Of a stretch of 64,000 nt of DNA, positions 674 through 28,103 are shown piece after piece; positions within the stretch are counted from its first letter, which is position 1; every line of letters starts with the position of its first letter. The stretch comes from Trichormus sp. M33_DOE_039 (lineage in GTDB: Bacteria > Cyanobacteriota > Cyanobacteriia > Cyanobacteriales > Nostocaceae), in contig DVDT01000082.1 of assembly GCA_015296085.1 (NCBI GenBank), forward strand, positions 62,001 through 126,000, written 5' to 3'. The notes under the pieces are model-generated. The model was not told where the DNA came from, made no database searches, and saw only the letters and a list, made by a program, of their open reading frames with translations. The translations under genes and the position numbers were made by a program.

Positions 674-1945
674 TTAAACCTCTTGTTTGGAAACTACTTT
701 GGATGTAAGTGTTTGAGCATCGGTAGTGACAGAATAAAATAAATTTTCATACTGATTTAAAGCTTGCTCAAAGGCGTACTGTTCTACAGCATATTTCCGG
801 CTGTTATAACCTAAAGTTTTAGCTTTCTCTGGATGTTTATATAGCTCTATGGTTGCCTTAGCCAAAGCCTCTGGATCTTCGGGAGTAATTACAATTCCGC
901 CACCGCTTTGTCTCACTGCTTTGGCAGCTGTACCATTTTGAGGTACGGAAGCTATTATGGCTCTACCACTAGCAAGTAAGACCTGAATCTTCGATGGCAT
1001 ATTGAAGGAAATGACGTTTTTCTTCTGCACTACCAAACCGACATCTGCGGCTGCTAACATCTGTGGCAAATGTTCACGAGGTTGGAACGGTAGTAACAAG
1101 ACGTTATCCGCACCACATTCTAAGCAATATTTTTGTAGCCTCTGCAAGCCTTTGGCTTCTCCAACGATTACAAAAGCGATTTCTGGGATGTGACGTAACA
1201 TCGCCGCCGCTTTAATGACAGTCTCTAGGCCTTGTGTCAAAGCAATGTTACCCGAATACAAGACTACGAATTTATCGTTGAGGTTGTGTGCAGCGCGAAA
1301 AGGATTGTTTTCTTGATGTAAAGGACGAATAAAATTGACATCTACCCAATTAGGTATTTGCTCAATTTTTTGTTGTGGTACGCCCTTGGACAGTAGATTT
1401 TCTACAAACCCATCAGCAATCACACTAACTTTGGTGGCACTTTTGTAAGCAAATTTTTCTAATACAGAAAAGATTTTAATTAGCCATTTATTTTTCAGTA
1501 AGCCAACGTGGATGGCTGCTTCTGGTAATATATCTTGCAGATTCAAAACCACTGGACACGCACGCAGGCATCCTAAAAGTGCGGCAGGCACACAGACAGG
1601 TAGTGATGGTGATGTGGAAAGAATGACATCAGGCCGCCAACCAAAAAGCGCAGGCCAAAAGCTAGAGATGACAAAACTAGCATCCAGTAAAACTCGGTCT
1701 ATCAGTTTTGGTTGTGGACGAATCCAAACAAAACTCCGCTGGATTTGGACACCGTTTTTGTATTCATTGACATACCACTTGCCACGGTATCCTTCGTAGA
1801 TTTGCCGCTCAGGATAGTTAGGCATAGCAGTGACTACGCGCACTTGGTGTCCTCGCTTTACCAGTCCCTCTGCTAATTCCGTCATCAGTGGGGCAATCCC
1901 AATCGGTTCTGGATAGTAATTGTAAGAGTAGATTAAAATCCGCAT
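674..1945 (-). CDS. WcaI-like family 4 glycosyltransferase
   Basis: A 423-residue GT-B glycosyltransferase. The N-terminus MRILIYSYNYYPEPIGIAP and the following TELAEGLVKRGHQVRVVTAMPNYP stretch match the WcaI/WbuB-type group, which transfers a sugar from a nucleotide donor onto a polysaccharide or lipid-linked acceptor on the cytoplasmic side. A GT4 C-terminal donor domain begins near residue 225 (VVLYSGNIALTQGLETVI) and contains the N-M-P-S-K motif seen in this subgroup instead of the classical E-x7-E. The gene stands alone, convergent with nothing obvious, about 24 kb from the polysaccharide cluster. Sugar and acceptor cannot be deduced. Function in extracellular polysaccharide synthesis is inferred from the family. 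Confidence 0.88.
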   Translation of the reverse strand: MRILIYSYNYYPEPIGIAPLMTELAEGLVKRGHQVRVVTAMPNYPERQIYEGYRGKWYVNEYKNGVQIQRSFVWIRPQPKLIDRVLLDASFVISSFWPALFGWRPDVILSTSPSLPVCVPAALLGCLRACPVVLNLQDILPEAAIHVGLLKNKWLIKIFSVLEKFAYKSATKVSVIADGFVENLLSKGVPQQKIEQIPNWVDVNFIRPLHQENNPFRAAHNLNDKFVVLYSGNIALTQGLETVIKAAAMLRHIPEIAFVIVGEAKGLQRLQKYCLECGADNVLLLPFQPREHLPQMLAAADVGLVVQKKNVISFNMPSKIQVLLASGRAIIASVPQNGTAAKAVRQSGGGIVITPEDPEALAKATIELYKHPEKAKTLGYNSRKYAVEQYAFEQALNQYENLFYSVTTDAQTLTSKVVSKQEV

Positions 1946-2897
1946 AACAAATTAGTCAGAGTCCCTGGCTACTTTAGAACATGAAAGACTTTTGTCCTAA
2001 ATGAAGATTGCTTTTTTTTTGCAAGCATCTGTTAAGACAGACTATATTTAATTTTGGCTTTAGATAGCTTTTTTGTCAGTGTCTTCAAATTAAAGATTAA
2101 GTAAATCTTGTTGTGACTTTCCTAGGTGTAACATGACCTATCGTAATTTTGTTCTTGTGAAAATCACTGTTGTTTGATTTATTTAAATCTAAGCATAAAC
2201 TCTGTGGCTACTAATTAAAATTTCTACTAGCGATTAGCAAAAGTTTGTAAAGTCTACGTAAAATTAATGTGTTTAAGCAAATATAATCATTCTTGTTTAA
2301 TTCTAAATACAGTGCTGACGAATTTAGAGAAATTTTCTATTCTATAAGATGGATTCCAGTAATAATTGGAGTACACCCTATCACCCAATTTAAAATTTGC
2401 TAGATTTCAGTTTATGCAAGTTTTTTACAAAAATAGCAATTTTAAAATTAGCAATAACATATTGGCGCGTTTAGTTTCTAGATTTCTGATGTCATTAATG
2501 TAGTTCACCCCATAATAATCCCAGTAATGACGACAACAATACAAATAATGTTTCTTCGTAAATATGCTCCTAAGATAGATTGACAAAACACGTACAAACC
2601 TGAAAGAACCTCAGCCCTTATTTATGAGGATCTTTTGTTAACTTCATTGAAACTAGTTCTAATTTCGGAAATTTGTTCGCAAAATTGCTGCCCAATCACG
2701 ATGAACAGAGTGGAAAATGAGCCTGACAGCGAATTAGATAGCTTGCTGTCCTGAAAAACGCTACGCGAACCTTCATTGTGCAGTGGCTTGCATTTCTAAG
2801 GAGCAAGCGACTTGTCGTCAGATATAACAACTTCTCTGATGGGAGACAGTATGCGAACGCTGGTAGTACAGAGTTCAGTCCCAAGAAAAACGAAGCC
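1946..2897. other. Long AT-rich intergenic region with dispersed-repeat fragments
   Basis: About 950 bases with no supportable gene. The left two thirds are AT-rich. Bases 2741-2773 and 2831-2861 resemble dispersed Nostoc repeats that contain CTACGCGAAC or ATGCGAACGC next to TTCTCTGATGGGAGAC; related copies lie at 58846-58875 and 61967-62002. A 93-residue reverse ORF here overlaps bgtA in another frame and looks like noise. Confidence 0.5.
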
Positions 2898-3638
2898 TTA
2901 GAGAATTTGTGAGAGGAATTTGCGGGTTCGTTCTTCTTGAGGTTGAGTAAAAAATTTTTCAGGGGTGGCTGATTCAACTAAGTTACCACTATCCATTAAC
3001 ACTACTCGGTCAGCAACTTCACGGGCAAATCCGACTTCATGGGTAACTACTACCATTGTCATACCTTCACTGGCTAAGTTACGCATGACATCCAAAACTT
3101 CTCTGACCATTTCTGGGTCTAATGCGGATGTAGGTTCGTCGAATAGCATAATTTTAGGTTGCATCGCTAAAGCACGGGCGATCGCTACCCGTTGTTGCTG
3201 TCCTCCAGATAGCTGTCCTGGATATTTATTCGCCTGAGCCAAAATTCCTACTCTTTCCAATAGCTGCATTGCCAATTCCTCAGCTTTGGCTTTTTGCCAA
3301 CGACGTACCCAAATGGGAGCTAAGGTGATATTTTGTAGCACTGTCAAATGGGGAAATAAATTAAACTGCTGAAATACCATCCCGACTTCTCGCCGAATTG
3401 CTTCGATGTTTCGTAAGTCATGGCTCAGGGTAATGCCATCAATATTAATTTTTCCTCTTTGGTATTCTTCTAGAGCATTAAAGGTACGGATAAAAGTTGA
3501 TTTACCTGAACCAGAAGGCCCCATTAAAACCACAACCTCTCCGCGATAAACCGTTAAACTCACGCCTTGGAGAACATGAAATTTGCCATACCATTTATGA
3601 ACATCTTCAGCAATAATTATAGGGATTTGTTCACTCAC
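2898..3638 (-). CDS. bgtA: Polar amino-acid ABC transporter ATP-binding protein (BgtA-like)
   Basis: A 246-residue ABC ATPase with every canonical motif: Walker A GPSGSGKS near residue 39, Q-loop FQQFNLFPH, signature [15 protein letters not shown], Walker [13 protein letters not shown], and the switch histidine in VVVTHE. It closely resembles GlnQ/HisP-type ATPases that drive amino-acid uptake. It is last in a reverse-strand run natF-natG-natH-bgtA, the order described for the N-II neutral/acidic amino-acid permease of Anabaena, in which BgtA also energises the basic amino-acid permease. The 64-base spacing to natH fits one operon. Family assignment is secure; the symbol rests on order and similarity. 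Confidence 0.92.
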
Positions 3639-3702
3639 AGATTTTTACCTCAAATTTTTCAAAAAGGCAGAAGACAAGAATGTGAAGAAGAGTGAATAAT
3701 GA

Positions 3703-4719
3703 CTACTGACTCAACTGTTTCTCTAATCGCTGAGAAGCTAAGGACATAGAGTAACAAAATATCCAATAAATTAAACCAATAAATAAATATACTTCTGCAT
3801 AACGACCAATAAATTGAGGTTGTGCCAATATGGAACGGGCAATGCCTGTAAGTTCTACTAAGCCGACAAGAGATAATAGAGAAGTATCTTTAAATAAGCC
3901 GATAAATTGCCCTACAATGGCGGGAATTACTGCACGTAAAGCTTGCGGTAAAACAATAAATATAACTACTAGAGGTGTGTTTAATCCTAGAGCTTTAGCA
4001 GCTTCCACTTGTCCGCGCGAAACAGCCTGGAGTCCACCACGTACATTTTCTGCCATGTAAGCTGCACTGAACAATACTAAACCAGCGATCGCTCTGACAA
4101 CCCTATCTAAACGCACATCTGCAAAGAGAAATAAAGGTAACATGACTTGGGCAAGGAATAAAATCCCAATTAGAGGGACTCCGCGCACAATTTCAATGTA
4201 CAGGATAGAAAACCAACGGACTACAGGTAAATTGCTAGTTCGACCTAAAGCTAGTAAAACCCCAATTGGAAAGGAAAGCACAATACTGACTGCGGCCATG
4301 AGTAGGGTCAGTAGTAAACCATTCCACAAAGTGCTGGGTACGGATGACAAACCAAATCCACCACCAATTAACCACAGGATTACAGGGAAAGATAACAACC
4401 ATGCTAGGGAAAGCCAAGGCGCGATAAATTTAGCAATGGCTAACTTTTGTTTACCGAAAAATGTTGTCGCAGTTATTGTACCTAAAATCGCAATAATGGC
4501 TAATACAAACCAAATTCGCCAATACTGGCTTTGAGGATATCTACCAACTAGAAATAAATGCAAATTGGCTTGAACTACTGCCCATTGTGCTTGAGTAGTA
4601 GCCCAAATTATTGCCCCGTAAGCTACCCAAAGCAGTAATACTAAGCTGATAACAGTTAATAAACTGTTATACCAATTGCTAAAGAGGTTTTTATGTAGCC
4701 AAGTTAGTTGTTTAGTCAT
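3703..4719 (-). CDS. natH: Amino-acid ABC transporter inner-membrane permease (NatH-like)
   Basis: A 338-residue polytopic membrane protein with several hydrophobic segments. The binding-protein-dependent permease domain occupies roughly residues 120-335. The cytoplasmic EAA loop is visible as VEAAKALGLNTPLVVIFIVL, the contact site for the ATPase. An N-terminal extension with extra membrane spans precedes the domain, as in cyanobacterial NatG/NatH and proteobacterial AapM-type permeases. It should pair with NatG as a heterodimeric channel. The 60-base gap to natG contains repeated TTAGTCA units and no terminator, so co-transcription is likely. Confidence 0.9.
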   Translation of the reverse strand: MTKQLTWLHKNLFSNWYNSLLTVISLVLLLWVAYGAIIWATTQAQWAVVQANLHLFLVGRYPQSQYWRIWFVLAIIAILGTITATTFFGKQKLAIAKFIAPWLSLAWLLSFPVILWLIGGGFGLSSVPSTLWNGLLLTLLMAAVSIVLSFPIGVLLALGRTSNLPVVRWFSILYIEIVRGVPLIGILFLAQVMLPLFLFADVRLDRVVRAIAGLVLFSAAYMAENVRGGLQAVSRGQVEAAKALGLNTPLVVIFIVLPQALRAVIPAIVGQFIGLFKDTSLLSLVGLVELTGIARSILAQPQFIGRYAEVYLFIGLIYWIFCYSMSLASQRLEKQLSQ

Positions 4720-4779
4720 TAGTCATTAGTCATTGGTCAACAGTTTCTTTCTTGTTTTCTTCCCAGTCCTCAATCCCTA

Positions 4780-5706
4780 TTACCTCTCTCTAATCTGAAC
4801 TCTGCGATTGAATAAGTTCATGATCAGGGAGATGGTCAAACTGAGGGTAAGATAAGTCAGGATAAGTACTAACATGACTTCCACTGCTTTACCCGTTTGG
4901 TTAAAGGTGGTGGAAGCAACAAAATAGATGTCAGGATAACCGATTGCGATCGCTAAACTGGAATTTTTGGTGAGATTAAGATACTGACTGGTGAGTGGCG
5001 GAATAATTACTCGCAAAGCTTGGGGCAGAATGATTAAGCGCATGATTGAACTAGGTTTTAGTCCTAGCGATCGCGCTGCTTCCCATTGTCCTTTGGGAAC
5101 TGACCCAATCCCACCCCGAACAATTTCGGCGATGAATGCACCAGTGTAAAAAGTCAATCCCAAAAGTAAAGCAGCAAATTCCGGCGATAGGTTAAACCAG
5201 AGTGTTTCTATGCCATTTTGGCTCAGACTGACAAATCCCCCAAGGGTGATTTTATTGTCTATCTTGGGGAAACTTAAAAAAACAGCGAAGTACCAAAACA
5301 GCAATTGCAACAGTAGCGGTGTATTACGGAAAACTTCGACGTAAACTGCCATGATGTTTCGCACTAGCCAGTTGTCAGACAGTCTGCCAATTCCAGCTAT
5401 AACACCGATGATAGTTGTGAAGATGATTCCTAAAATTGCTATTCGCAATGAGTTAATTAGCCCCACCCATAAGGCGCGACTATAAGAATCAGTTGGTTGA
5501 TAAGCAATTGGCGTTTCACCAATGTCAAATGATGCTTGTTGGTTGAGAAAACCAAAGCCAAACTGAATACCTAACTGCTGTAAGTTGCGATTGAGGTTTC
5601 CCCACAGCATCGCCACTATAGCTAGTGCTAAAAACACAGCAATGAGTTGTCCAGTAATTCGCCAAAAGCGATCGTCACGCCAAAATGGGGGTTTAGTGTT
5701 GGTCAT
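4780..5706 (-). CDS. natG: Amino-acid ABC transporter inner-membrane permease (NatG-like)
   Basis: A 308-residue permease of the HisM/GlnP family. An N-terminal membrane helix (about residues 18-38) precedes a periplasmic-type segment, and the permease domain begins near residue 88 (LWVGLINSLRIAILGI). The EAA loop WEAARSLGLKPSSIMRLIIL is present. It follows natF after an 81-base gap on the reverse strand and precedes natH, so it is the second channel subunit of the same importer. It reads through without interruption. Confidence 0.9.
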   Translation of the reverse strand: MTNTKPPFWRDDRFWRITGQLIAVFLALAIVAMLWGNLNRNLQQLGIQFGFGFLNQQASFDIGETPIAYQPTDSYSRALWVGLINSLRIAILGIIFTTIIGVIAGIGRLSDNWLVRNIMAVYVEVFRNTPLLLQLLFWYFAVFLSFPKIDNKITLGGFVSLSQNGIETLWFNLSPEFAALLLGLTFYTGAFIAEIVRGGIGSVPKGQWEAARSLGLKPSSIMRLIILPQALRVIIPPLTSQYLNLTKNSSLAIAIGYPDIYFVASTTFNQTGKAVEVMLVLILTYLTLSLTISLIMNLFNRRVQIRER

Positions 5707-5787
5707 TAGTCGTTAGTTTATGGGCATTGGGCATTGTTTCTTCTACTTGTCTACCCTGTCACCTGTTACCTCTTACTTACCTCCTTA

Positions 5788-6837
5788 CTAGCGGAACGGT
5801 GGCGAATACAACAGTCCGCCTTTTGTCCATTGTTGATTTTGACCGCGGGGTAAGTTGAGGGCCGTTTTGGGGCCGAGGTTGCGATCGTAAATTTCACCAT
5901 AGTTGCCAACGTGTTTTATGGCTTTAGCAGCAAAATCATTAGTTAAACCAAGTCCTTCACCTAAATTGCCTTCAGTTCCTAGTAACCGTTTGACATCTGG
6001 ATCGTTACTGGTGGCTAATTGAGCTACATTCTGTGAATTAATGCCCAACTCCTCAGCTTTGATCAGGGAATAAACTACCCAAGTTAGAGTATCACGCCAT
6101 TTACCATTGCCTTTCGCTACTGCTGGGGCAAGGGGTTCGGAAGAAATGACTTCATCTAAAATGACGTTATCTTCTGGTTTAGGGAGGGTTGTACGTCGAG
6201 AAACTAAGGCGGAGCGATCGGCGGTGACAGCTTCACAACGTCCTTCGGCATAGGTGGCAAAGGTGACATTAACATCTTCAAACACTACTGGTTTGTAGGT
6301 AATACCTCGTTTCCGCATTTGGTCTGCTAGATTCTGCTCTGTAGTAGTACCAGTTTGTACGCAGATGGCTTTATCTTTGAGGTCTGTTAGAGATTTAATA
6401 TTGCTATTTTTACGCACCATAATGGCTTGCCCATCATAAAAAACTACAGGGGCAAACTCTAAACCTACTGACGTGGCACGGCTTAATGTCCAGGTGGTGT
6501 TACGGCTGAGAATATCTACTTCTCCTGTTTGTAAAGCTGTAAACCGTTCTTTAGCATTGAGGTTACGGAATTCTACGGCATCTGGATTATCAAACACCGC
6601 AGCAGCCACAGCGCGACAAACATCTACATCTATACCGCTATATTTACCGTCAGTGCCTACAAAACTAAATCCTGGTACTTCGCCACTGACACCACAAATG
6701 ATCTGACCACGGCTTTTGACAGTATCCCAGCGATCTGCTGACGTGTTACTGGTATTTGTTGTTTGTGCTGTGTTTCCACCACAGGCAGCAATAGCAAATA
6801 TTAAGGATGCTCCTAGAATTAAAGTTGATTTCCTCAT
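5788..6837 (-). CDS. natF: Amino-acid ABC transporter periplasmic binding lipoprotein (NatF-like)
   Basis: A 349-residue substrate-binding protein of the type 3 family. The N-terminus is a lipoprotein signal with lipobox A-I-A-A-C and cysteine at residue 19, so it should be anchored in the membrane facing the periplasm. The mature part starts with WDTVKSRGQIICGVSGEVPG and contains the AapJ/BztA-like sequence DVDVCRAVAAAVF and the FTALQTGEVDILSRNTTWTL block. It captures polar or acidic amino acids for NatG/NatH/BgtA. It is first in the operon, with a candidate NtcA site 27 bases upstream of the start. Substrate preference follows the Anabaena N-II system and is not visible in the sequence. Confidence 0.91.
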   Translation of the reverse strand: MRKSTLILGASLIFAIAACGGNTAQTTNTSNTSADRWDTVKSRGQIICGVSGEVPGFSFVGTDGKYSGIDVDVCRAVAAAVFDNPDAVEFRNLNAKERFTALQTGEVDILSRNTTWTLSRATSVGLEFAPVVFYDGQAIMVRKNSNIKSLTDLKDKAICVQTGTTTEQNLADQMRKRGITYKPVVFEDVNVTFATYAEGRCEAVTADRSALVSRRTTLPKPEDNVILDEVISSEPLAPAVAKGNGKWRDTLTWVVYSLIKAEELGINSQNVAQLATSNDPDVKRLLGTEGNLGEGLGLTNDFAAKAIKHVGNYGEIYDRNLGPKTALNLPRGQNQQWTKGGLLYSPPFR

Positions 6838-7432
6838 ACTTCAAAAATTATTGTTGCTCAAAATGTAGTTGTGAATACAATACTTCTATTAAAACCAATA
6901 GACTTCTGTAATATAAAACTTTTTTAGCACTTAATGTTGCACTTTTATGCACGGAAAAAATATTGATGATTTTCTTGATTTATTGATTTTTCTTATTTAT
7001 ATCGGAAATCAATCCTCTGGTATTTTCAATATGTGCATGATTAACTTGTATCCTGAAATTCAACTTTCTATAATTTTTAGTTATTTATATTTGGTCGATG
7101 AATTACATTTTTTATAGACTCAAAGTTTTTTGTAAAAATAATAATTAACTGCATAAAATAATTTTCAATAAGTACGAACAGAGAAAAACAAGATTTTATT
7201 ATTTACTGTTTTAGAGACTTTTTATTATTAACCATGTGATTGATAATAAAAATCTTATTTGTCGAATTGATTAACAATAAGATGCTACATTTTCAAGCCT
7301 TAAAAGTCAGAGATTCCAGACTTTTAAGCAGTTGGGCATATTGTTTTTAACTAATTCAACCTAAGCGATCGCCTCTAAAGGGTTAAACTAGTTTTCGTGA
7401 CAGCTGCTCCACCGTTACTTAAAGAGGGTTTT
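6838..7432. other. Divergent AT-rich intergenic region (natF / YbjN gene)
   Basis: About 590 bases between two divergent genes, very AT-rich from 6890 to 7320, with one HIP1-like CGATCGCC near 7365. It presumably contains both promoters. Apart from the NtcA-like site at 6865-6878, no gene or strong hairpin is evident. Confidence 0.5.
6865..6878. promoter_or_regulatory. Candidate NtcA-binding site upstream of natF
   Basis: GTA, eight bases, then TAC (GTAGTTGTGAATAC), the exact NtcA consensus GTAN8TAC, 27 bases before the natF ATG. NtcA is the nitrogen-control activator of cyanobacteria. The distance to the start codon is shorter than expected for a class II activated promoter, and the motif is common by chance (about 16 in 64 kb), so the site is only suggestive. 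Confidence 0.35.
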
Positions 7433-7990
7433 ATGGGAGCTAACCTCAAGCAAATTGCTAATTACTTAGACAAACTAGGCTGGGACTACCGTCTTGATGA
7501 GGAAGAAGACAGGATTATTACAGGTGTAGAAGCTGATAACTTAGAAGATTTTCTAATAGTTGTCCAATTAGATGAAGAGGGAAAATTTTTTCGGTTATTT
7601 GCGCCTCATGTTCTTCCAGGGGTACAAGATCATCCTCACAAGGGGGTGATCTTACAAACAATGTTGGCTATTTCTTGGGAAACAAAAATGCTGCAATGGG
7701 AATATGATCCATCTGATGGTGAAATTCGCGCCATTATTGAATTTCCCTTAGAAGATGCACTCCTGACAGAAAAACAATTTCATCGTTGTCTGAGTGGGTT
7801 AATTCAAATCGTTGATAATATAGCCATCCCACGTTTGCATGAGGTGATGGCCACAGGTAATGATCCGGGGAATATAGAACTAGGGGAAAGAATTTTGCTG
7901 AGTATCCAAGAGGAAGCACCTGGATTACTGGAATTACTGGCAAAGGCGATCGAGGCGAGGAAGAGACGGGGAAGTTTTCCTACAGAGTGA
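7433..7990 (+). CDS. YbjN-domain protein
   Basis: A 185-residue cytoplasmic acidic protein. The ATG at 7433 is preferred over the GTG at 7397 because AGAGGG lies just before it and the protein then begins MGANLKQIANYLDKLGWDYR, the usual start of this cyanobacterial family. The sequence matches the YbjN fold, related to type III secretion chaperones: an N-terminal helix, then strands such as RIITGVEADNLEDFLIVVQL, then a C-terminal helical part. Biochemical role is unknown; in enterobacteria YbjN affects stress and motility. It stands apart from neighbours. Confidence 0.75.
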   Translation: MGANLKQIANYLDKLGWDYRLDEEEDRIITGVEADNLEDFLIVVQLDEEGKFFRLFAPHVLPGVQDHPHKGVILQTMLAISWETKMLQWEYDPSDGEIRAIIEFPLEDALLTEKQFHRCLSGLIQIVDNIAIPRLHEVMATGNDPGNIELGERILLSIQEEAPGLLELLAKAIEARKRRGSFPTE

Positions 7991-8067
7991 GACGAAACAC
8001 CACTTAAATAGCTATACTCCAAAGTGATACCCTCACTATATACTGAAATTTTCTAGGGCTGGATTTT

Positions 8068-8712
8068 ATGACATCCTATGCAACCTCCTCTGCCAAAGCG
8101 GAAATGAGTGAACTCCGGCGGTTAAAAGGCCTACTACCGCCAGAATTGCAGAGTTGGGTCACGGTTGAAGGCACAACTGAGGTCAATCCACCCCTGATCC
8201 GCAGCGAAGAAATTGGTAAAGACCAAGTAGAGATTCAAATTGACTTGGTGAAATGGGATACTCTGGCAATGGATCAGCGTAATCTGCTGTTCTGGCATGA
8301 AGTCGCCCGTATTCAAAATGACACAATTCCCAAAGATGGATGGGAAATGGCAGCTTTAGCCATCGGTTTAGGTGGAGCTGTAGGCGAGTTGTGGGTGCAG
8401 GATGGATTACTGTTAGTTTTAGCTTTGGCACTGTGTGGTGTGTCAGGCTGGCGACTATATCAGAAGAACAATGGCGAGAAGCAAATGCGAGAATTAATCG
8501 ATGCTGACGAAAAAGCGATCGCACTAGCAACTCGTTTTGGTTATAGTCTCCCCAATGCCTACAAAAGTCTAGGTAGTGCCTTAAAAACCCTGATCGATAA
8601 TACTCCTAGCAAACGCCAGCGTTCTCGCTATGAAGCACGACTATCTGCTCTCAAGCGTAGTGCCAATAAAGCCAAGGCTAAATCTAGAAGCACAGATGAA
8701 AGCGGAATTTAA
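8068..8712 (+). CDS. DUF3318 family membrane-associated protein
   Basis: A 214-residue protein of a family almost confined to cyanobacteria. Residues 1-95 are soluble, including MSELRRLKGLLPPELQSWVTVEGTTEVNPPLI-type sequence and the conserved DQRNLLFWHEVARIQND. Two hydrophobic stretches near 96-130 (MAALAIGLGGAVGELWVQDG and LLLVLALALCGVSGW) look like a membrane hairpin. The C-terminal 80 residues are basic and helical. The HE in FWHEVARI recalls zinc peptidase helices, but there is no second histidine at the expected place, so I do not claim catalysis. Function is unknown. Confidence 0.75.
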   Translation: MTSYATSSAKAEMSELRRLKGLLPPELQSWVTVEGTTEVNPPLIRSEEIGKDQVEIQIDLVKWDTLAMDQRNLLFWHEVARIQNDTIPKDGWEMAALAIGLGGAVGELWVQDGLLLVLALALCGVSGWRLYQKNNGEKQMRELIDADEKAIALATRFGYSLPNAYKSLGSALKTLIDNTPSKRQRSRYEARLSALKRSANKAKAKSRSTDESGI

Positions 8713-8727
8713 TCTGGAAATATTTAT

Positions 8728-8748
8728 GAGGGTGGGTATTGCCCACCC
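8728..8748 (+). terminator. Stem-loop after the DUF3318 gene
   Basis: GGGTGGG and CCCACCC arms around a short loop (TATTG) just after the stop codon. No real T-run follows, so termination would be weak. This GC-rich hairpin is also a frequent Nostoc intergenic repeat. Confidence 0.4.
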
Positions 8749-8881
8749 TATGATTTAACTAGTCTTTCACAAGCTGAGATCGCCGCTTCAGCCACATAGA
8801 ACTCAAGCTTAGTAACACAATTCCTAAGCTTTGGACTTCTGTATTAAGAAAAAGTTAATCTTGGATCAAGGTAACTATTTA

Positions 8882-8904
8882 GACATCTATATTTCATAGA
8901 TGTC
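8882..8904. repeat. Perfect short inverted repeat
   Basis: GACATCTAT and ATAGATGTC flank five bases (ATTTC). It lies in the gap between the DUF3318 gene and the 3' end of queE. It may be an RNA hairpin or part of an old repeat; no T-run follows on either strand. Confidence 0.5.
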
Positions 8905-9003
8905 GAAGGATAGGAGTAAATCTTCATCAAAACTTTAACAATTAAGTATGATGCGATACAGGACATAATCTTGTGTTTCCTGCCTCCTCTCTCCTGCCTT
9001 TCT

Positions 9004-9798
9004 TCAAAGCTGATTGAGCATTTTGTGAGTCTGAGGGATGACGCGGACTTGTTTTAAACTTTTTTTCATCAAAGCTTGCCAAGTTAAAACCTGTGCCGGT
9101 GTGGGAGCAAGGATAGGGATTTTATTTAATTGCTCAGAATCAGCTAAAGGCGTAACAGGTTGTAAAAATACGGGAATATCAGGACTAATATCTGCCACTA
9201 ATAAAGCAGCTTGCTCTAATTCAGCTACATCCGTATGATGAGAGATAATTATTTTAATGAATGTTTCTAAATTTGGATAACAAATTTGTAGAAACTTCAT
9301 ATGTTCTGACCAATAGGATTCACCACTGACGCTAGGAAGTTTCAAATCCATACCTACAGAATCTAGATATGGTAATATCATGGCCAACTGTTCTGGGCGA
9401 TGTCCGCCGGTTTCCAAGTATATAGGTAGACCAGTGAGCGATCGCGCCTGGGGCAGAAATTCCTTTAAGAAACCTGCATGAAGAAGTGGTTCTCCTCCTG
9501 TTAAGCTAATGCTATCGTGTAAACAAGGTAAATTCTGTCGTTCAATCCATTCTAATAAGACTGGTATTAAGACAGGGTTGGAGTGAATTTCAAAATCTCG
9601 GAGTCCGGGCGATCGCTCGATCCTACAGTCAGCAGGTGTATGCCATGTATGGACACTATCGCAAAAGTGGCAACGTAAGTCACACAAAGCAAAGCGAATA
9701 AAAATTTGACGTGTCCCGACATTCAGTCCTTCCCCTTGAATAGCAGAAAAGACCTCAATCAGGCGTGCAGTAGGTTCGGCTGTAGTGTTAGCAGTCAT
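9004..9798 (-). CDS. queE: 7-carboxy-7-deazaguanine synthase, radical SAM
   Basis: A 264-residue radical SAM enzyme that ring-contracts 6-carboxytetrahydropterin to 7-carboxy-7-deazaguanine in queuosine biosynthesis. Visible features are the N-terminal EVFSAIQGEG motif (about residues 15-24), the iron-sulfur cysteines C39, C43 and C46 in FALCDLRCHFCDS (a CX3CX2C spacing), and the SAM-binding SLTGGEPLL. The cysteine spacing and the QGEG motif separate QueE from pyruvate formate-lyase activases. Other queuosine genes are not in this window. It is a single gene, convergent with the DUF3318 gene. A HIP1 site lies just upstream of the start. Confidence 0.92.
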   Translation of the reverse strand: MTANTTAEPTARLIEVFSAIQGEGLNVGTRQIFIRFALCDLRCHFCDSVHTWHTPADCRIERSPGLRDFEIHSNPVLIPVLLEWIERQNLPCLHDSISLTGGEPLLHAGFLKEFLPQARSLTGLPIYLETGGHRPEQLAMILPYLDSVGMDLKLPSVSGESYWSEHMKFLQICYPNLETFIKIIISHHTDVAELEQAALLVADISPDIPVFLQPVTPLADSEQLNKIPILAPTPAQVLTWQALMKKSLKQVRVIPQTHKMLNQL

Positions 9799-9991
9799 AG
9801 GATAGTAGCAACGCGATCGCGCTGCATCGGTTCAACAACAAGTGAGTTTTTAATCTCTTGTTCTATTGTGAATCTTGTAGGCAATCCCTAACTCAACCTA
9901 TAAAACTAACTATGAGTCATTATTCCTACTTATTTAAAATGAGGTTAGGTGATTTTCTAGGACAAAATAATGTTTGGCTGATTAAATTTAT

Positions 9992-11041
9992 ATGGCAACG
10001 AAAGTGCAGAGCTTCATGACTAGCCAACCCACTGAGGTAAATTTTCCAGTTACTTCCCTAAATGAAACGGTTATAGTGCAGGTATCTGCGCGGTTAAGCG
10101 TGCTTGAAGCAGTAAGCTTTAAGCAAACCTGCCAAAATTTAACCCAAGAAAATAACCATCCCAAGCAAATCATTATTGATTTTCAGAAAACCACTTTTAT
10201 GGATAGTAGTGGTTTAGGTGCTTTGGTAAGTAGTTTTAAAACTACTCAAGAAAAAGAAATTTCCATGATCCTGCGGAATGTTACCCCCCAGGTCATGGCA
10301 GTGCTAAACCTTACAGGACTAGATAAAGTTTTTTCCATTGAGTCTAATAGCGAAGCGTTACCCATAAAAGATGATAATGTCACAGACATTCAGAAGGCTT
10401 CAACCCGCAAAATAGAGCAACTACCAACTACTCATCCATCCGTAGCATCTTGGATGAAACGATTTATAGATATTATTGGTGCTTTGGTGGGTTTGGTAAT
10501 CACAGGAATTTTGTTTATTCCCATAGTGGTCGCTATCCAAATTGATGATCCCGGCCCGATTTTCTTTGGACAAATTCGCTGCGGTTGGATGGGGAAACGC
10601 TTTAAAATTTGGAAATTTCGCTCTATGTGTGTAGATGCAGAAGCGAAAAAAGCTCAAGTTAAAAACCAAGTCCAGGGTGCGTTCTTCAAGAATGAAAATG
10701 ACCCCCGAATTACACGCGTCGGCAGATTTTTACGTCGCACCAGCTTAGATGAGTTTCCGCAATTTTGGAATGTCTTGCAAGGCGACATGAGTTTAGTGGG
10801 GACTAGACCACCCACACCCGATGAAGTGGAACGCTATGAAGTTCCAGAGTGGCAACGTCTTGATGTGAAACCCGGTATGACTGGGGAATGGCAAGTTAAC
10901 GGTAGGTCTAAAGTTCGCAGTTTTGAAGATGTAATTAGGCTGGATTTGCAATATCAGAAAAACTGGAGTTTGATATATGACTTGAAGTTAATTTTCAAGA
11001 CTGTTGCTGTTATTTTTAACAAAAACAGTGGTGCTTATTAG
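9992..11041 (+). CDS. STAS domain fused to polyprenyl-phosphate sugar-1-phosphate transferase
   Basis: A 349-residue two-domain protein. Residues about 20-115 are a STAS (anti-sigma-factor antagonist) domain with the phosphorylation-site motif MDSSGLGAL, D71-S72-S73, where SpoIIAA-like proteins are phosphorylated. After a linker rich in S, T and Q, residues about 147-349 form a bacterial sugar transferase domain: a membrane helix (IIGALVGLVITGILFIPIVV), then PGPIFFGQIRCGWMGKRFK, KFRSM, LRRTSLDEFPQFWNVLQGDM, SLVGTRP and the LDVKPGMTGEWQVNGRS block. This domain starts exopolysaccharide synthesis by putting the first sugar phosphate on undecaprenyl phosphate. The fusion suggests initiation controlled by serine phosphorylation. 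The start is uncertain; a second ATG lies eight codons in. Confidence 0.88.
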   Translation: MATKVQSFMTSQPTEVNFPVTSLNETVIVQVSARLSVLEAVSFKQTCQNLTQENNHPKQIIIDFQKTTFMDSSGLGALVSSFKTTQEKEISMILRNVTPQVMAVLNLTGLDKVFSIESNSEALPIKDDNVTDIQKASTRKIEQLPTTHPSVASWMKRFIDIIGALVGLVITGILFIPIVVAIQIDDPGPIFFGQIRCGWMGKRFKIWKFRSMCVDAEAKKAQVKNQVQGAFFKNENDPRITRVGRFLRRTSLDEFPQFWNVLQGDMSLVGTRPPTPDEVERYEVPEWQRLDVKPGMTGEWQVNGRSKVRSFEDVIRLDLQYQKNWSLIYDLKLIFKTVAVIFNKNSGAY

Positions 11042-11106
11042 CAAATTATTTATATTTTAAATTTGTTAATAAACTTGCAACTACTAAATAAAATTTAGTT
11101 GTGACT

Positions 11107-11142
11107 ATGCCCAAACTAATTTAAGTTTTGGGCATATTTTTT
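11107..11142 (+). terminator. Rho-independent terminator of the STAS-sugar transferase gene
   Basis: ATGCCCAAACT and AGTTTTGGGCAT pair with one bulged base around a six-base loop, followed by six T at 11137-11142. The T-run reaches into the stop codon of the convergent toxin gene. Confidence 0.85.
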
Positions 11143-11410
11143 ATTCATTATAATGATATTTGCATGAAAGAATAATTATTAAATCTTCATCTATTTTGTA
11201 AACTAATCTATGCTCATCTGTAATTCGCCTTGACCAATAACCTTGTAATTCGTATTTCAAGGCTTCAGGCTTACCGATTCCTGAAAATGGTTCTCTTTGA
11301 ATATCTTTGATTAGATCCAATATCTTTTTAAAAATTTTCTTATCTTCTATTGTCCACTGACCTAATTGCTCAAAGGCTTCTGGTTCAAATGCTATTTTTT
11401 TCATATTCAT
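11141..11410 (-). CDS. YoeB/Txe-type RelE-superfamily toxin
   Basis: An 89-residue protein (or 87 from the second ATG) of the Txe/YoeB family, ribosome-dependent mRNA interferases that cut mRNA in the A site. Family marks are FEPEAFEQLGQWTIEDKKIFKKI at the N-terminus, EPFSGIGKPEALKYELQGYW in the middle, the basic pair in SRRITDEHRLVYKI, and the C-terminal CKYHY that carries the catalytic histidine and tyrosine. It overlaps the upstream antitoxin gene by 26 bases, as is usual for coupled toxin-antitoxin pairs. The ORF is complete with catalytic residues present, so the toxin is probably active. Confidence 0.88.
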   Translation of the reverse strand: MNMKKIAFEPEAFEQLGQWTIEDKKIFKKILDLIKDIQREPFSGIGKPEALKYELQGYWSRRITDEHRLVYKIDEDLIIILSCKYHYNE

Positions 11411-11636
11411 CTAAATCAACATAGATCAGATTTCCTTTCTCTACATTTTCTAAAGCTTTAAGTAGATGTTTTTTATTAGCTTCTGAGTTGAGAAGATAGG
11501 TAGTTTCATCTTCTTTATTTGGCTGTTCAACTAGAACTATCACTTCTACAATAGTCCCTTCTGGTAATTCGGTTGTAGAAAGTTCAATTTTCCCATCTTT
11601 ACCGACAATAGCCTTTTGCTTAATTCCACTGAGCAT
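11385..11636 (-). CDS. Antitoxin partner of the YoeB-like toxin
   Basis: An 83-residue protein from the ATG at 11636, preceded by GGAGAGGAG; a TTG start at 11675 would add 13 residues and leave that purine tract inside the gene. The N-terminal half (VGKDGKIELSTTELPEGTIV) resembles a swapped-hairpin AbrB-like DNA-binding domain. The C-terminal half (TYLLNSEANKKHLLKALENV) resembles the YefM segment that wraps the YoeB toxin. Antitoxin first and overlapping the toxin is the standard order. Such antitoxins bind their own promoter, so autoregulation is expected. The exact antitoxin family is uncertain. Confidence 0.78.
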   Translation of the reverse strand: MLSGIKQKAIVGKDGKIELSTTELPEGTIVEVIVLVEQPNKEDETTYLLNSEANKKHLLKALENVEKGNLIYVDLDEYEKNSI

Positions 11637-11899
11637 GATTTTTAGATACTCCTCTCCTAAGCGAGATATTGACAAGATTGTATAACCTTATATTAACTCT
11701 ATTTAATTAAAGTCATTGAGTGCGATCGCAACTTTTCTCAATATACGAGGTTGGGTGGAGAAAAGCGCGACTTGATATGGATTTCGGTGTTGGGTTACGC
11801 TATTGCTTCATTCAATCTACTTCTAGTTATTCATGTTATTTCACTCTAATTACAGGGAAATATAAAAGTAACCTGATTGAGAATAAATTAGAGGTAGTA

Positions 11900-12394
11900 A
11901 TGGCTGATTTATCTAGATTGAAGTGGAGTAAAAATGTAAGTTATCAAGGTAGCGAAATAACATTTTGGGATTTTCCAATAAATGAACTGTCAAAAATATT
12001 TATCTTACATTGGAAAAAAGGCTATGAAGCTAATGCAGCAAAACCGGAAGAGGGTGATATTTTATTAATCAGGCAACACGCCCGTATCACACACATTGTT
12101 CAATTGTTTAATAAAACTGTTTATGATGAGGCTTCTGGTTATGAATTTAGCATTGGTCGTCTAGTTCAAATACTTTGGAAAGCACATGATTTGAACAATG
12201 CGCCACATAATACAGAAATATTTGGTTGCCCAATTAATTTTCCTCCAAACGGAAAAGCTCACTTTTTAGAAAACATCGGTGATTTTAATGAATATTGGAG
12301 TAAGCTTGGCGGATTACCTGCATTTCAAAACTATGTTACAGGTGTGTTAGATAAAAACGGTGAATGGCTACAACCATTAATTGCGTTAGCATAG
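11900..12394 (+). CDS. Hypothetical protein
   Basis: The ATG at 11900, preceded by GAGG at 11891, gives 164 residues starting MADLSRLKWSKNVSYQGSEI. The reading frame stays open upstream to 11720, but that part looks non-coding: it includes a HIP1 site and a GGTTGGGTGG repeat-like stretch. The protein is soluble and mixed alpha/beta, with EEGDILLIRQHARITHIVQL as its clearest strand-rich part, followed by YEFSIGRLVQILW. This recalls small beta-barrel domains of the EVE/PUA kind, but I cannot assign it. It is convergent with chlN, sharing the terminator between them. Confidence 0.6.
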   Translation: MADLSRLKWSKNVSYQGSEITFWDFPINELSKIFILHWKKGYEANAAKPEEGDILLIRQHARITHIVQLFNKTVYDEASGYEFSIGRLVQILWKAHDLNNAPHNTEIFGCPINFPPNGKAHFLENIGDFNEYWSKLGGLPAFQNYVTGVLDKNGEWLQPLIALA

Positions 12395-12399
12395 CTACA

Positions 12400-12426
12400 A
12401 TAAAAAAGGCGAACCTATGTTCGCCT
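12400..12426 (-). terminator. chlN: Rho-independent terminator of chlN
   Basis: AGGCGAAC (12407-12414) and GTTCGCCT (12419-12426) pair around CTAT. On the reverse strand the stem is followed by six T, so it ends the chlL-DUF5331-chlN transcript. No T-run follows on the forward strand. Confidence 0.88.
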
Positions 12427-12458
12427 CTAAAGTAATTAATTATCTCAAAACCCAAAAT

Positions 12459-13886
<1,428 letters not shown>

Positions 13887-13935
13887 TCAATGCAGCTGGA
13901 AATAGGGACAGCATTAGAGGGGCGAGTAGAGAGTG

Positions 13936-13967
13936 GGGAATAGTCAGTGGTGAAACTGACTATTCCC
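13936..13967. repeat. Strong hairpin in the DUF5331-chlN intercistronic gap
   Basis: GGGAATAGTCAGT (13936-13948) and ACTGACTATTCCC (13955-13967) pair perfectly over 13 bases around a six-base loop. No T-run follows on the coding strand, so it is more likely an mRNA-stabilising or processing element than a terminator. It sits within a Nostoc-type short repeat tract. Confidence 0.7.
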
Positions 13968-14046
13968 TATTCTCTATTCCCTGACACTGTAATGTGTGGC
14001 ACATAGCACCAACTAAAAACCCCTAAATTCAACAGCAACGGTATTT

Positions 14047-14739
14047 TTATGCGTTGGGGAAGAGACGGGCAATTTCCGATTCGTCAAAAACGCCATTTGG
14101 TAATTCTTCCCCCATGAAATCATTGCTTTCACCACCCTTTTGTAAGGATGTTTCATCACCCCAGACATCAGATAACACATCGCTGAAAGCGTTTTCGTCA
14201 GGTGTATTCAGATCCTCAAGAATTTGTTCTTCTAATCTTTCTACTGACGAAGTTGCAACATCAAAAGAAACATCACCAAAACCGTCTTCTTCTGGACTGG
14301 CTGTTGCCATTCTATTGAAGCTATCTTCCATGTTGCCGACTATCAGCGTTTGAGGATCAATCTCTTCCCCAAAAGTATCGGTGTGAGAAACGGCAAAAGT
14401 ATCATCTTCCGTATTTTCTTCCATACCGACAGTAGACGCTTCTGTTTCGGGCATCGTACTGTTACCGAGGGCGATGTCTGGGTCAAAGTTTAATTCCAGT
14501 ACCTCAATTAAAGTATCCGCATCAGGATTTAATTTCGCAAAAGGAAACATTAACTGCGCTAATTTCGGATCTAGCGCATTTACCACTCCCAGGATGAGGT
14601 AAGAGGGTGGCCGCTTGCCACCATCAGGTGTATATACTGACTCCACTTGCATATGGAGTTTGATCCAATCACGATTGGCTTGGAAAAATTGCAACCACTT
14701 TTGTCTAATCGAATCTGTAAAGCTATTAAAGAAAGCCAT
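14047..14739 (-). CDS. DUF5331 protein encoded between chlL and chlN
   Basis: A 230-residue protein with two parts. Residues 1-95 form a compact region (SFTDSIRQKWLQFFQANRDW, then SYLILGVVNALDPKLAQLMF). Residues about 96-230 are low-complexity and very acidic, with few K or R and many D, E, S and T (for example DTFAVSHTDTFGEEIDPQTL), ending in SEIARLFPNA. I recognise the DUF5331 family found between chlL and chlN in heterocystous cyanobacteria. It starts 30 bases after chlL and lies 184 bases before chlN, so it is probably co-transcribed. Function is unknown; a role in assembling or regulating the dark reductase is inferred from position only. Confidence 0.78.
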   Translation of the reverse strand: MAFFNSFTDSIRQKWLQFFQANRDWIKLHMQVESVYTPDGGKRPPSYLILGVVNALDPKLAQLMFPFAKLNPDADTLIEVLELNFDPDIALGNSTMPETEASTVGMEENTEDDTFAVSHTDTFGEEIDPQTLIVGNMEDSFNRMATASPEEDGFGDVSFDVATSSVERLEEQILEDLNTPDENAFSDVLSDVWGDETSLQKGGESNDFMGEELPNGVFDESEIARLFPNA

Positions 14740-14769
14740 TATTGACCCCCATCCTGAAAACTAGATGAT

Positions 14770-15636
14770 TTATACAATCATCAAGTCTAATTCCTCTTCA
14801 GGATTAGCAACCTGTGGTTTACGCGGATTTAAATAAAAATCAGATAACAAAGTAAATAATTCACGATCAGGAGCATCGTTAGGTACTACCCCTTCAGGTC
14901 GTGCAAGAATTTGGTCAGCAATGTTGAGGTAGTAGTCACATACGTAGTTTAATGATGGGTCTGACTCTGCCATTTCAAACAAAGTTTTACCCTTAACACG
15001 AGACACCCTAATATCTTCAATTAATGGCAGGACTTCCAGGACGGGCATCGGAACTGCTTCCACATACTTTTCAATCAAGTCGCGCTTGGAGGTACGATTG
15101 CCAATTAATCCAGCTAGACGTAGTGGGTGAGTTCGTGCTTTCTCTCGCACTGAAGCTGCAATGCGATTGGCAGCAAACAAGGCATCAAAGCCGTTATCAG
15201 TAACAATCATGCAGTAATCAGCATAATTGAGTGGTGCTGCAAAACCGCCACAAACAACGTCACCCAAAACATCAAACAAGATTACATCGTACTCATCAAA
15301 GGCATTGAGTTCCTTCAGTAATTTCACGGTTTCACCAACGACGTAGCCACCACAGCCCGCACCCGCAGGCGGCCCACCAGCTTCAACGCAGTCTACACCA
15401 CCATAGCCTTTGTAAATTACGTCTTCAGGCCAGACATCTTCATAGTGGTAGTCTTTTTCTTGCAGGGTATCAATAATAGTAGGAATTAAAAATCCAGTTA
15501 AGGTAAAGGTGCTGTCGTGTTTGGGGTCACACCCGATTTGCAGAACTTTTTTGCCGCGTTTGGCTAGGGCGACGGAGATATTACAGCTAGTTGTAGATTT
15601 ACCTATCCCACCTTTTCCGTAAACTGCTAATTTCAC
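14770..15636 (-). CDS. chlL: Light-independent protochlorophyllide reductase iron-sulfur ATP-binding protein L
   Basis: A 288-residue NifH-like ATPase that passes electrons from ferredoxin to the ChlN-ChlB component. The P-loop GKGGIGKS is at residues 7-14. The two cysteines that bridge the [4Fe-4S] cluster across the homodimer are C95 ([12 protein letters not shown]) and C129 ([12 protein letters not shown]). The switch region GCDPKHDST is intact. Length and motifs match ChlL and differ from NifH, which carries other C-terminal sequence. It is first in the chlL-DUF5331-chlN order. The enzyme is oxygen-sensitive and serves dark or low-oxygen greening alongside the light-dependent enzyme. Confidence 0.97.
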
Positions 15637-16192
15637 TGTTGTTTGCCTCTTATCGTTTTTTATGAAACTTCTGGCTAAAACTTTGACTTGGTGAGACGTG
15701 ACAAATCGCCGTCTCTACAAAAGCAATATGTGAGGTCTGTGAATGTGATTATTGTCGAAATTTCACGGGAAATAAAGGGGTGCTAAATCTGAAAAATCGC
15801 TATAAAAGGAATTAGAGAACATTATTGGGTTATTAATTAACTCAAAGCCCATAAAAATCTATTCTTTAGCTAAAAATTTTTTTATTGAATATTTTATATA
15901 ACTTTTTTTATAAAAATAGTTACAAAAGACAAAATATCATAATGACCGATTATCAAGATTTCTCGTAGATTTAGCCGACTTCAATCAGCACTGTGATATG
16001 GCTAGACTTGTTTTAAGCAAAGGCGATCGCAAATGAGGTATTGATTTGCGCCGTAGACCGCAAAAAATTAGGGATCAGTCAATAATCTTACCCTTTATAC
16101 CTATATCTCAACCTGTGTGGCTCACTGTAGATTAGCCAAATAGAACTATCTTGTAAAAAATTATTAATTTTCCCAATATCATGCAGGCTAGA
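15637..16192. other. Upstream region of chlL with a dispersed repeat
   Basis: About 550 bases. It probably includes the chlL promoter. A short dispersed repeat at about 15691-15720 pairs GAGACG with CGTCTC around GTGACAAATCGC; a relative lies at 46996-47020. Bases 15840-15960 are very AT-rich. One HIP1 site lies near 16022. No gene is visible. Confidence 0.5.
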
Positions 16193-16450
16193 CTAAAATT
16201 TCAATTCGGCATTAATTGCCTCTATTTCTTGTAGTGACTGCCATCCAGCTTGCCACTGTGAACTATCTTGCAATAATTTAGCGTTCATCCAAAACCGGAC
16301 ATCAGGATCGCAAGCCGCAACCATTTCAGCGTAAACCCACTTCCCTTGATTTTTGCGATTGACGACTTGAAAATGTCTCCATCCATCTACTTTGGTGGTT
16401 GCTGTCCATTTAGAACCCACTAAGTAAGGAAATTTCTGTTTTTTCGTCAT
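16193..16450 (-). CDS. TIGR02450-type small tryptophan-rich protein
   Basis: An 85-residue soluble protein with seven tryptophans, starting MTKKQKFPYLVGSKWTATTK. The pattern GSKWTATTKVDGWRHFQVVN, then CDPDVRFWMNAKLL and WQAGWQSL, is characteristic of the short Trp-rich family TIGR02450, found in cyanobacteria and marine proteobacteria. Function is unknown. It is a single gene flanked by long intergenic regions. The HFQVVNRK stretch suggests a small beta-sheet that could bind nucleic acid, but that is speculation. Confidence 0.78.
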   Translation of the reverse strand: MTKKQKFPYLVGSKWTATTKVDGWRHFQVVNRKNQGKWVYAEMVAACDPDVRFWMNAKLLQDSSQWQAGWQSLQEIEAINAELKF

Positions 16451-16921
16451 TGGATTTACAGTCAGTCATGATCATTATTTATAAATATTTACATAAACAG
16501 GAGTGAGAATTCAGACTTCTGAATTCTCACTAATTTAAGGTTCAGCTATTGTTTGTAGCTAATACCAATTCTCTATGAAGTTGCACCAAATAAATGATGT
16601 AGAGAGGTTGCATGCAACCTCTCTACAGTCCAGAATAAAGCGCATCTTCATTAAGAAACGGTATAAATAGGGGCAAGTCAGACGCATTCTCGTGAATATT
16701 TGCGTATGCTGTTTAACTCGTGCTTATTTATCACTCTGAAAAAATCAGAGCAATTGCCCTACATCAATAAATTGTTAGTTAAAAAACTTCCTTTGTTGCT
16801 CCGAATCCAGCGAACCATCCATTATCAATGCAACAAACAAGTCAAACCCTCTTGCTTTAAGTCCTTTGCCTAATACCTAACTGCCTACAACTGGGGATAA
16901 TTTTTAATTATCCGTTGCACT
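16451..16921. other. Intergenic region containing a MITE-like element
   Basis: About 470 bases between two reverse-strand genes. The MITE-like element at 16562-16664 fills the middle. An inverted repeat GTGAGAATTCAG / CTGAATTCTCAC lies at about 16503-16530. The rest shows no gene. Confidence 0.5.
16562..16664. mobile_element. MITE-like element, copy 1 (103 bp)
   Basis: Ends are imperfect inverted repeats of about 25 bases: the left begins ATACCAATTCTCTATGAAG and the right, read in reverse complement, ATACCGTTTCTTAATGAAG. The centre is a palindrome, TAGAGAGGTTGCATGCAACC with CTCTA following. A second copy of the same length, about 85 percent identical by eye, lies at 45800-45902. No coding capacity, as expected for a miniature element moved by another transposase. 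Confidence 0.8.
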
Positions 16922-17257
16922 TTACCATCTGTTGTATCTACGGTCTCTGTTGTATCTATCATACCTGCCACCTCTGTCATACCTGGAACTGGCAACAGAA
17001 AACTCAGCTCGGCAACCGTTTCTCACCCAAATACGATTACGAACATAGCCCCAATTGCCTCTACAACTAGCATCAGACAACTGCCTCACAAATCTAACTG
17101 GCCCTCTTGCGGGTACTACGCAAGTGTCTCTCCGATTATTCACGCTTTCGCAAGTGATGATTTCGCGCGCGGAAGCAGGGGGAACAAAACTTAAAAGTGT
17201 ACTGATACTACTAGCAACTATGAAAGTAGCAGTTATGACTGGAAACCGGATAACCAT
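16922..17257 (-). CDS. Secreted DUF3011 protein
   Basis: The ATG at 17257 is preferred to a TTG two codons upstream. The 111-residue product begins with a signal peptide ending around PPASA-REIITCES. The mature part has four cysteines in the DUF3011 arrangement: ITCESVNNRRDTC, then SDASCRGNWGYVRNRIWV and RNGCRAEFSV. The C-terminus is an arginine-, glycine- and tyrosine-rich tail (RYDRGGRYDRYNRDRRYNRW). DUF3011 domains are small lectin-like modules in exported bacterial proteins. The basic tail may bind envelope polysaccharide, which is inference. It is a single gene divergent from clpB. Confidence 0.78.
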   Translation of the reverse strand: MVIRFPVITATFIVASSISTLLSFVPPASAREIITCESVNNRRDTCVVPARGPVRFVRQLSDASCRGNWGYVRNRIWVRNGCRAEFSVASSRYDRGGRYDRYNRDRRYNRW

Positions 17258-17719
17258 AGTCAATCGATGCTCCGTGAATATAACACCATAACAATTAATT
17301 GAGGCTGGCTAAACCCAAGCCATATTGATCATAAAATTTGAGTCGTATGAGCAAATAGGCCAAAAGTCATGAATATAACCATGATTAAAGTCATATTTTG
17401 AGGCTAATCGGCTTCCCATCCGGTCAAGCAATGCCTATGTTGTATGGTCTCTCAATTTCGCTGGCATGAAGTAAATGTTGCCTTTGGTATAGAGGTAAGT
17501 ACGATCACTGTTTGACAATAGACGCTGGATTTTAGATGCTTACGGATGTTACTGAGTAAGAAGACTCAACAGTAGAAGACAAAAGGTAATACTACTACCT
17601 GACGAAGACGTGAAGACCGATCCAGCTATTTGTGCCAGTATTCATAAAATAACCATATAAGAACAACGAATAACTATTGTTCTATCTGCATCTGCGCGTC
17701 TACGTTCCTGAATCAGCCT
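17258..17719. other. clpB upstream region
   Basis: About 460 bases between the divergent DUF3011 gene and clpB. It should contain both promoters. No heat-shock CIRCE repeat (TTAGCACTC-N9-GAGTGCTAA) is visible. No gene is visible. Confidence 0.5.
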
Positions 17720-26657: not shown

Positions 26658-26770
26658 TCAACCCTATTTGTGGGCGCGTATAAGGAGACAAGGAAGAGAT
26701 TTGATCAGTTTCCGATGCCCCATTCCCTATTCCCTGTTCCCTATTAATGATTTTTCAAGGCTAATTAACT

Positions 26771-27970: not shown

Positions 27971-28103
27971 TTCTTACATCTTGTAGCAGTAGTTACTTTG
28001 TAGTAAGTACTGTTGGTATCAGATATGATAACGAGTAGTTAATATTCTTTAATACTTCGTCCCAGTCGGACAGTCCGCTCTGAAAGAAATTAAGGTATAC
28101 GTA

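Follow-up and report, generated by a model that had tools for sequence, protein, structure and literature searches.

The priming step of bacterial polysaccharide synthesis draws on a limited, shared lipid carrier, and its control in bacteria is an open question (PMC12802240, PMC10942596). Here, we analysed a 64,000-nucleotide stretch of the genome of Trichormus sp. M33_DOE_039 (contig DVDT01000082.1, positions 62,001 to 126,000 of the forward strand; hereafter, the window), in which one gene joins a STAS domain to a sugar-1-phosphate transferase of the Bac_transf family. Its closest described counterpart is all4160 of Anabaena sp. PCC 7120, a glycosyltransferase with a STAS domain at its N-terminus according to a review (PMC8256260), so the fusion as such is already published. 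This gene, which has a neighbourhood corresponding to that of the window fusion, is among the genes outside the HEP island that are needed for heterocyst envelope polysaccharide, and it was lowered in sigC and sigE disruptants (PMC4390870). The passages on all4160 in these two papers name no link to a kinase.

Other described systems share single features with the window fusion. HmpU, HmpV and HmpW of Nostoc punctiforme form a STAS/kinase/phosphatase switch at a hormogonium motility and polysaccharide locus; its output, HmpV, acts toward an effector that is still undefined (PMC6495340, PMC8256260); however, HmpV is a free STAS protein, whereas the STAS domain in the window is built into an enzyme. 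In the SypA–SypE system of Vibrio fischeri, unphosphorylated SypA is active (PMC10120452, PMC4517449), but SypA is again a free STAS protein, from other bacteria, and SypE combines kinase and phosphatase in one protein, unlike the cyanobacterial loci described below. In Myxococcus xanthus, the phosphorylated regulator EpsW acts post-translationally on the priming transferase EpsZ (PMC12802240), but EpsW is a response regulator acting in trans on a large monotopic phosphoglycosyl transferase (monoPGT), and the term 'STAS' is absent from the main text of that paper. Finally, the large monoPGT WbaP has a catalytic domain of the same kind as the window transferase (phmmer; Foldseek match 8t53), whereas its N-terminus consists of a four-helix bundle and a PF13727 domain (PMC10942596).

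When the window protein was used as the query, matches were obtained in all 195 genomes of an order-level sample and in 276 of the 386 genomes of a phylum-level sample, many of them lone transferases or lone STAS domains. From ranked listings, and thus not at random, 100 full-length fusion loci (mostly ~15 kb) and 20 control loci with lone transferases were taken. The window stretch 1992-19041 and the region of a paralogue in the same genome (L011) were added to give 102 fusions, and two lone transferases of that genome, L004 (1.5 kb flank) and L013, to give 22 controls. Several genomes are represented by two or three loci each, and contig ends truncate some of the flanks. From their kinship to the window genome, and from the named relatives, we regard the sampled genomes as cyanobacterial. 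The fusion open reading frame (ORF) is present in all 102 fusion loci and in none of the controls. Among the best 80 loci on contigs of named genomes, 18 are fusions, all cyanobacterial by title (3 coincide with rows of the 102), and 62 are not. The occurrence of both domains in one ORF in so many loci indicates that the fusion is not a product of chance. A spread beyond cyanobacteria was considered, as some Lachnospiraceae tblastn matches (L264 and L280) reach query residue 21, but it was dropped because the STAS profile found nothing in these long transferases among the matches listed.

The main finding is that an RsbW-like kinase gene lies directly behind many of these fusions. Such a gene follows 54 of the 102 fusions on the same strand, with gaps of -65 to 478 bp (overlapping in 22 loci and >300 bp in five), whereas no RsbW-like kinase was found in the flanks of the 22 controls (Fisher p 1.2e-6). 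Three more loci carry an RsbW-like ORF on the opposite strand, upstream in L116 and L124 and downstream in L134, bringing the total to 57. In the named-genome set, none of the 25 lone cyanobacterial transferases has an adjacent kinase. Two weak matches, a 401-aa protein 2.9 kb downstream in L232 and another ~5 kb upstream in L248, were excluded from the count. Pfam HATPase_c_2 matches all 22 kinases that were scanned out of the 57, a search of solved structures with the kinase profile retrieves RsbW of Bacillus subtilis and chains of the SpoIIAB type, and residues E50, N54, G88 and G119 are present in all 57 and D86 in 56.

Further partner-switching components occur at the same loci. Within 4 kb, a SpoIIE phosphatase gene is found at 16 of the 102 fusions and a free STAS gene at 18, each as against 1 of the 22 controls. 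Kinase, phosphatase and free STAS gene are present together in 15 fusion loci (L075, L076, L077, L081, L091, L111, L112, L121, L126, L133, L137, L160, L011, L116 and L124, the last two with an opposite-strand kinase). The five phosphatases that were scanned carry a receiver (L011, L161 and L124), a PAS domain (L112) or GAF and PAS domains (L126). Other operon partners vary between loci. In L148 and L151, a free STAS gene follows the fusion on the same strand (136 and 50 bp, respectively), but their flanks yielded no kinase. The titles and abstracts shown by our literature searches contained no gene link between a STAS-transferase fusion and a kinase, although Wang 2007, O'Toole 2021, Durand 2024 or Riley 2018 may hold an earlier mention.

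In SpoIIAA and RsbV, the phospho-acceptor is the serine immediately after an aspartate. Therefore, S72 rather than S73 is the predicted acceptor in the D71-S72-S73-G74 motif of the window protein. In the alignment of the 102 fusions, D71 and S72 are invariant, whereas S73 and G74 are conserved in 99 and 98 rows, respectively; the Asp-Ser pair is also present in all 18 named-genome fusions, one of which has the motif DSAG. Mean conservation is 0.57 for the STAS domain, 0.33 for the linker and 0.81 for the transferase. We also compared the kinase with each half of the fusion using rank Mantel correlations over the 54 fusion-kinase pairs, with permutation p values. The kinase co-varies more strongly with the STAS domain (partial r given the transferase 0.52, p 0.001) than with the transferase (partial r given the STAS domain 0.16, p 0.031).

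The sequence-only reading had described a complete STAS domain with a DSSG motif joined to a complete sugar-1-phosphate transferase, and this description was confirmed, with the transferase match nearly full length and both domains in one ORF (Table 1). STAS, STAS_2 and Bac_transf are the only Pfam matches above curated cut-offs in the 349-aa protein; these include neither PF13727 nor a transporter domain of the kind found in SulP/SLC26-type STAS fusions. The protein also passes the cut-off of the NCBIfam model ant_ant_sig. An identity with HepC was dropped, as the NCBIfam HepC model gives 82.4 bits against a cut-off of 140. The only ORF listed on the opposite strand within the gene is 82 aa long. 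In an AlphaFold2 model built from 52 alignment rows (mean predicted local distance difference test score [pLDDT] 76.9, predicted template modelling score [pTM] 0.59), S72 is the opening residue of helix 72-87. Because of the pTM value and a pLDDT of <50 for residues 120-145 in the linker, the mutual placement of the two domains in the model is not trustworthy. Foldseek matches the STAS part to SpoIIAA/RsbV chains from kinase complexes (1tid, 1th8 and 6m36) and the transferase part to PglC (8e37, E 1.4e-13) and WbaP. Thus, a degenerate STAS domain, which would have spoken against phosphoregulation, was not seen at the sequence level, and the predicted fold likewise appears intact. D253-E254, present in all 102 fusions, presumably corresponds to the catalytic Asp-Glu pair of PglC. 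The window protein is therefore predicted, from its sequence, to be a membrane priming phosphoglycosyl transferase that transfers a sugar-1-phosphate to undecaprenyl phosphate.

We consider it probable (roughly 0.7) that this priming transferase with a built-in STAS domain is a client, or output, of a partner-switching module. In such a module, the STAS domain would be bound by an RsbW-type kinase and phosphorylated at S72, and the phosphate would be removed by a phosphatase of the SpoIIE type that carries a receiver or a GAF/PAS sensor. Where a free STAS protein is encoded, it would compete for the kinase. This account fits the gene sets for kinase, phosphatase and free STAS protein in the fifteen full loci. 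If the fusion resembles SypA and HmpV, whose unphosphorylated form has been reported or suggested to be active, its own unphosphorylated form would be the active one. For the window copy, the kinase would act in trans. The earlier suggestion that an anti-sigma-type serine kinase gates priming is thus partly supported: the kinase genes behind fusions, the invariant S72 and the STAS-specific co-variation lend it strong, if indirect, support, but the window copy itself has no nearby kinase.

Several observations weigh against this reading. A downstream same-strand kinase is missing from 48 of the 102 fusions, any kinase from the fetched flanks of 45, and in the named-genome set just 4 of the 18 fusions (L231, L233, L234 and L235) have one downstream, 3 of which were already among the 102. 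The controls are few (22), some of them have short flanks, and they come from ranked lists. Shared history, joint transfer or rate effects could also yield the kinase-STAS co-variation. The kinase profile finds no kinase within the 64-kb window, nor in the flanks of any of the 14 loci of the window clade, including the window copy. A profile search of the window genome gave four RsbW-like proteins: one belongs to the paralogue, one (L218:7776-8210) lies after petB/petD-like genes, so named by reading their ORFs, and near a SigF gene, one (L219:7659-8090) directly follows an ORF (5985-7658) that appears by eye to combine a receiver with a SpoIIE-type phosphatase, and the fourth is a weak match. 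A petBD-type kinase of similar score (131-142 bits) is present in 12 of the 13 genomes giving window-clade rows, but it is missing from G128, which retains the fusion.

The paralogue (L011:8338-9339) is 60% identical to the window fusion and has the full gene set (Table 1); upstream of it lie Alg14-like, GT28-like and flippase-like genes. In a tree of 105 transferase domains, from which L004, L013, L144, L141, L181, L173, L166 and all other controls except five were omitted, the 14 window-type rows form one clade (98/89) beside the kinase-linked L094 (94/90), with weak deeper forks. A first, quicker tree placed the kinase-linked L138, L139, L154 and L155 beside the window clade (Shimodaira-Hasegawa-like approximate likelihood ratio test 84) and L094 elsewhere. 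In both trees, the rows nearest to the window clade are kinase-linked. Searches with window queries showed that neighbouring genes are also common to both groups: a DUF3318 homologue is present in the flanks of 10 of the 14 window-clade loci, 29 of the 54 kinase-linked loci, 7 of the 34 other fusions and none of the 22 controls; the corresponding figures are 10, 9, 3 and 0 for a QueE-like homologue and 4, 18, 1 and 0 for a WcaI-type homologue. Because of these common neighbours, the window gene and the kinase-linked genes are likely to be positional orthologs. The simplest history, although not a proven one, is that the kinase linkage was lost in the window lineage and the acceptor serine was retained.

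The lack of a linked kinase in the window clade would also be expected if the STAS domain served there as a dimerisation or scaffold element that replaces the N-terminal domain of large monoPGTs, with phosphorylation unused in this lineage; large monoPGTs do have another N-terminal domain, which is dimerising and nucleotide-sensing (PMC10942596). However, D71 and S72 are invariant in the 14 unlinked rows as well, despite the modest mean conservation of the STAS domain over the 102 fusions, and we regard such a purely structural use as unlikely. A flow of information in the reverse direction was also considered. STAS and RsbW proteins together make up the classic sigma-factor switch. The transferase could be a membrane anchor or sensor, with an anti-sigma kinase titrated by its STAS domain; sigma-factor activity would then depend on priming activity or on the state of the membrane, and the fusion would amount to an anti-anti-sigma element joined to an enzyme. 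In the window genome, the RsbW-like gene L218:7776-8210 lies 3.6 kb from the SigF gene (11833-12705) and is a candidate anti-SigF. However, SigF-like ORFs were found in none of the 102 fusion flanks (1 of the 22 control flanks), and the linked kinase of L011 sits among polysaccharide genes; this direction therefore seems distinctly improbable. It is very improbable that the adjacent kinase is an operon passenger that controls something else, since, although neighbourhood alone does not prove an interaction and further operon partners are variable, the kinase is absent from all controls, co-varies chiefly with the STAS domain and has a gene that overlaps the fusion in many loci.

L218:7776-8210 was considered as the kinase that serves the window copy but was kept as one candidate among several: it is near SigF, its counterpart is absent from G128, and unlinked kinases of similar score are also found in G287 and G217, which have a linked kinase. 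In the tree rows that were checked, the latter do not group with the petBD-side kinase.

The gene order in the window also bears on the identity of the fusion. The order natF, natG, natH and bgtA is that of alr4164-alr4167 in Anabaena (PMC4500139). In the window, a cluster of natFGH-bgtA-like genes lies near the fusion; three genes separate the natF-like gene from the fusion, matching the numbering from all4160 to alr4164, and the two sets lie on opposite strands. We take the prefixes all and alr to imply the same arrangement for all4160 and alr4164-alr4167. On the basis of gene position, given by these neighbours, their spacing and their strands, the window ORF is very probably the all4160 ortholog. 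The product of the window copy is therefore likely to be a heterocyst-envelope polysaccharide. The sequence-only reading had pointed to partner switching for polysaccharide in motile filaments, which fits less well, as the counterpart described in Anabaena has been linked to the heterocyst envelope (PMC4390870).

Table 1. Coordinates of the fusion gene, its parts and its neighbours in the window, and of the genes following the paralogue in L011
Feature	Position	Strand	Remarks
STAS + Bac_transf fusion (all4160-like)	9992..11041	+	349 aa, ATG start, single uninterrupted frame
STAS domain, residues 22-121	10055..10354	+	PF01740 E 1.7e-17, profile positions 6-104 of 106
D71-S72-S73-G74 motif	10202..10213	+	S72, predicted phospho-acceptor
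Linker, residues 122-152	10355..10447	+	Model confidence mostly low; conservation mean 0.33
Bac_transf (monotopic sugar-1-phosphate transferase), residues 156-342	10457..11017	+	PF02397 E 1e-67, profile positions 1-178 of 179
D253-E254	10748..10753	+	Presumed catalytic pair
WcaI-family glycosyltransferase	674..1945	-	Outside the stretch 1992-19041 used in flank counts
ABC amino-acid transporter genes, natF-natG-natH-bgtA order	5788-6837, 4780-5706, 3703-4719, 2898-3638	-	Pfam SBP_bac_3, BPD_transp_1 (two), ABC_tran
DUF3318 gene	8068..8712	+	PF11780; positional marker, also at kinase-linked loci
QueE-like radical SAM gene	9004..9798	-	Divergent neighbour; QueE models below their cut-offs
L011 kinase	9346-9813		After the fusion, 6 bp gap
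L011 free STAS	10007-10336		After the kinase
L011 receiver-SpoIIE phosphatase	10559-11728	other strand	
L011 hybrid histidine kinase	11782-15783	other strand	

Two other features of the window were noted. At 11141-11675, convergent to the fusion, lie a gene for a YoeB-like toxin and, overlapping it on its upstream side, a small gene that probably encodes the antitoxin; this pair does not appear to belong to the fusion module. A polysaccharide cluster at 25437-35068, 14 kb off on the same strand as the fusion, contains genes that, by reading of their ORFs, encode glycosyltransferases, a Wzc-like protein and an O-antigen-ligase-like protein. Elsewhere in the sample, the architecture itself varies. 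In the first tree, L181, a transferase without a STAS domain, sat on a long branch amid the fusions and perhaps reflects STAS loss. In two Pseudanabaena loci, GT28-C, Alg14-like, STAS and transferase domains form one 717-aa chain (L236:5023-7176), and Alg14-like, STAS and transferase domains are joined (L243:5029-7155). L134:6995-8416 combines GT28-C, STAS and transferase domains, and L144:6956-8806, which is open at a contig end, combines WecG-type, STAS and transferase domains. These longer fusions seem to place two sugar-transfer steps in one polypeptide.

STAS outputs with undefined targets, such as HmpV and SypA, occur in hormogonium development and biofilm formation, and the fusion, which in many relatives is closely followed by a kinase gene, offers a defined enzyme-kinase pair for testing both the control of priming and the targets of STAS outputs. 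With some caution, we favour the broader view that, across cyanobacteria, a dedicated partner switch has its output at the first enzyme of polysaccharide synthesis rather than at a sigma factor: the kinase, the phosphatase sensor and the free STAS competitor would set the phosphorylation of S72 and thereby control how undecaprenyl phosphate enters the synthesis of envelope polysaccharides, including that of the heterocyst, and HmpV and SypA may act likewise, in trans, on priming transferases. The kinase-linked fusion suggests that protein phosphorylation acts as a switch on the first step in the building of the sugar coat.
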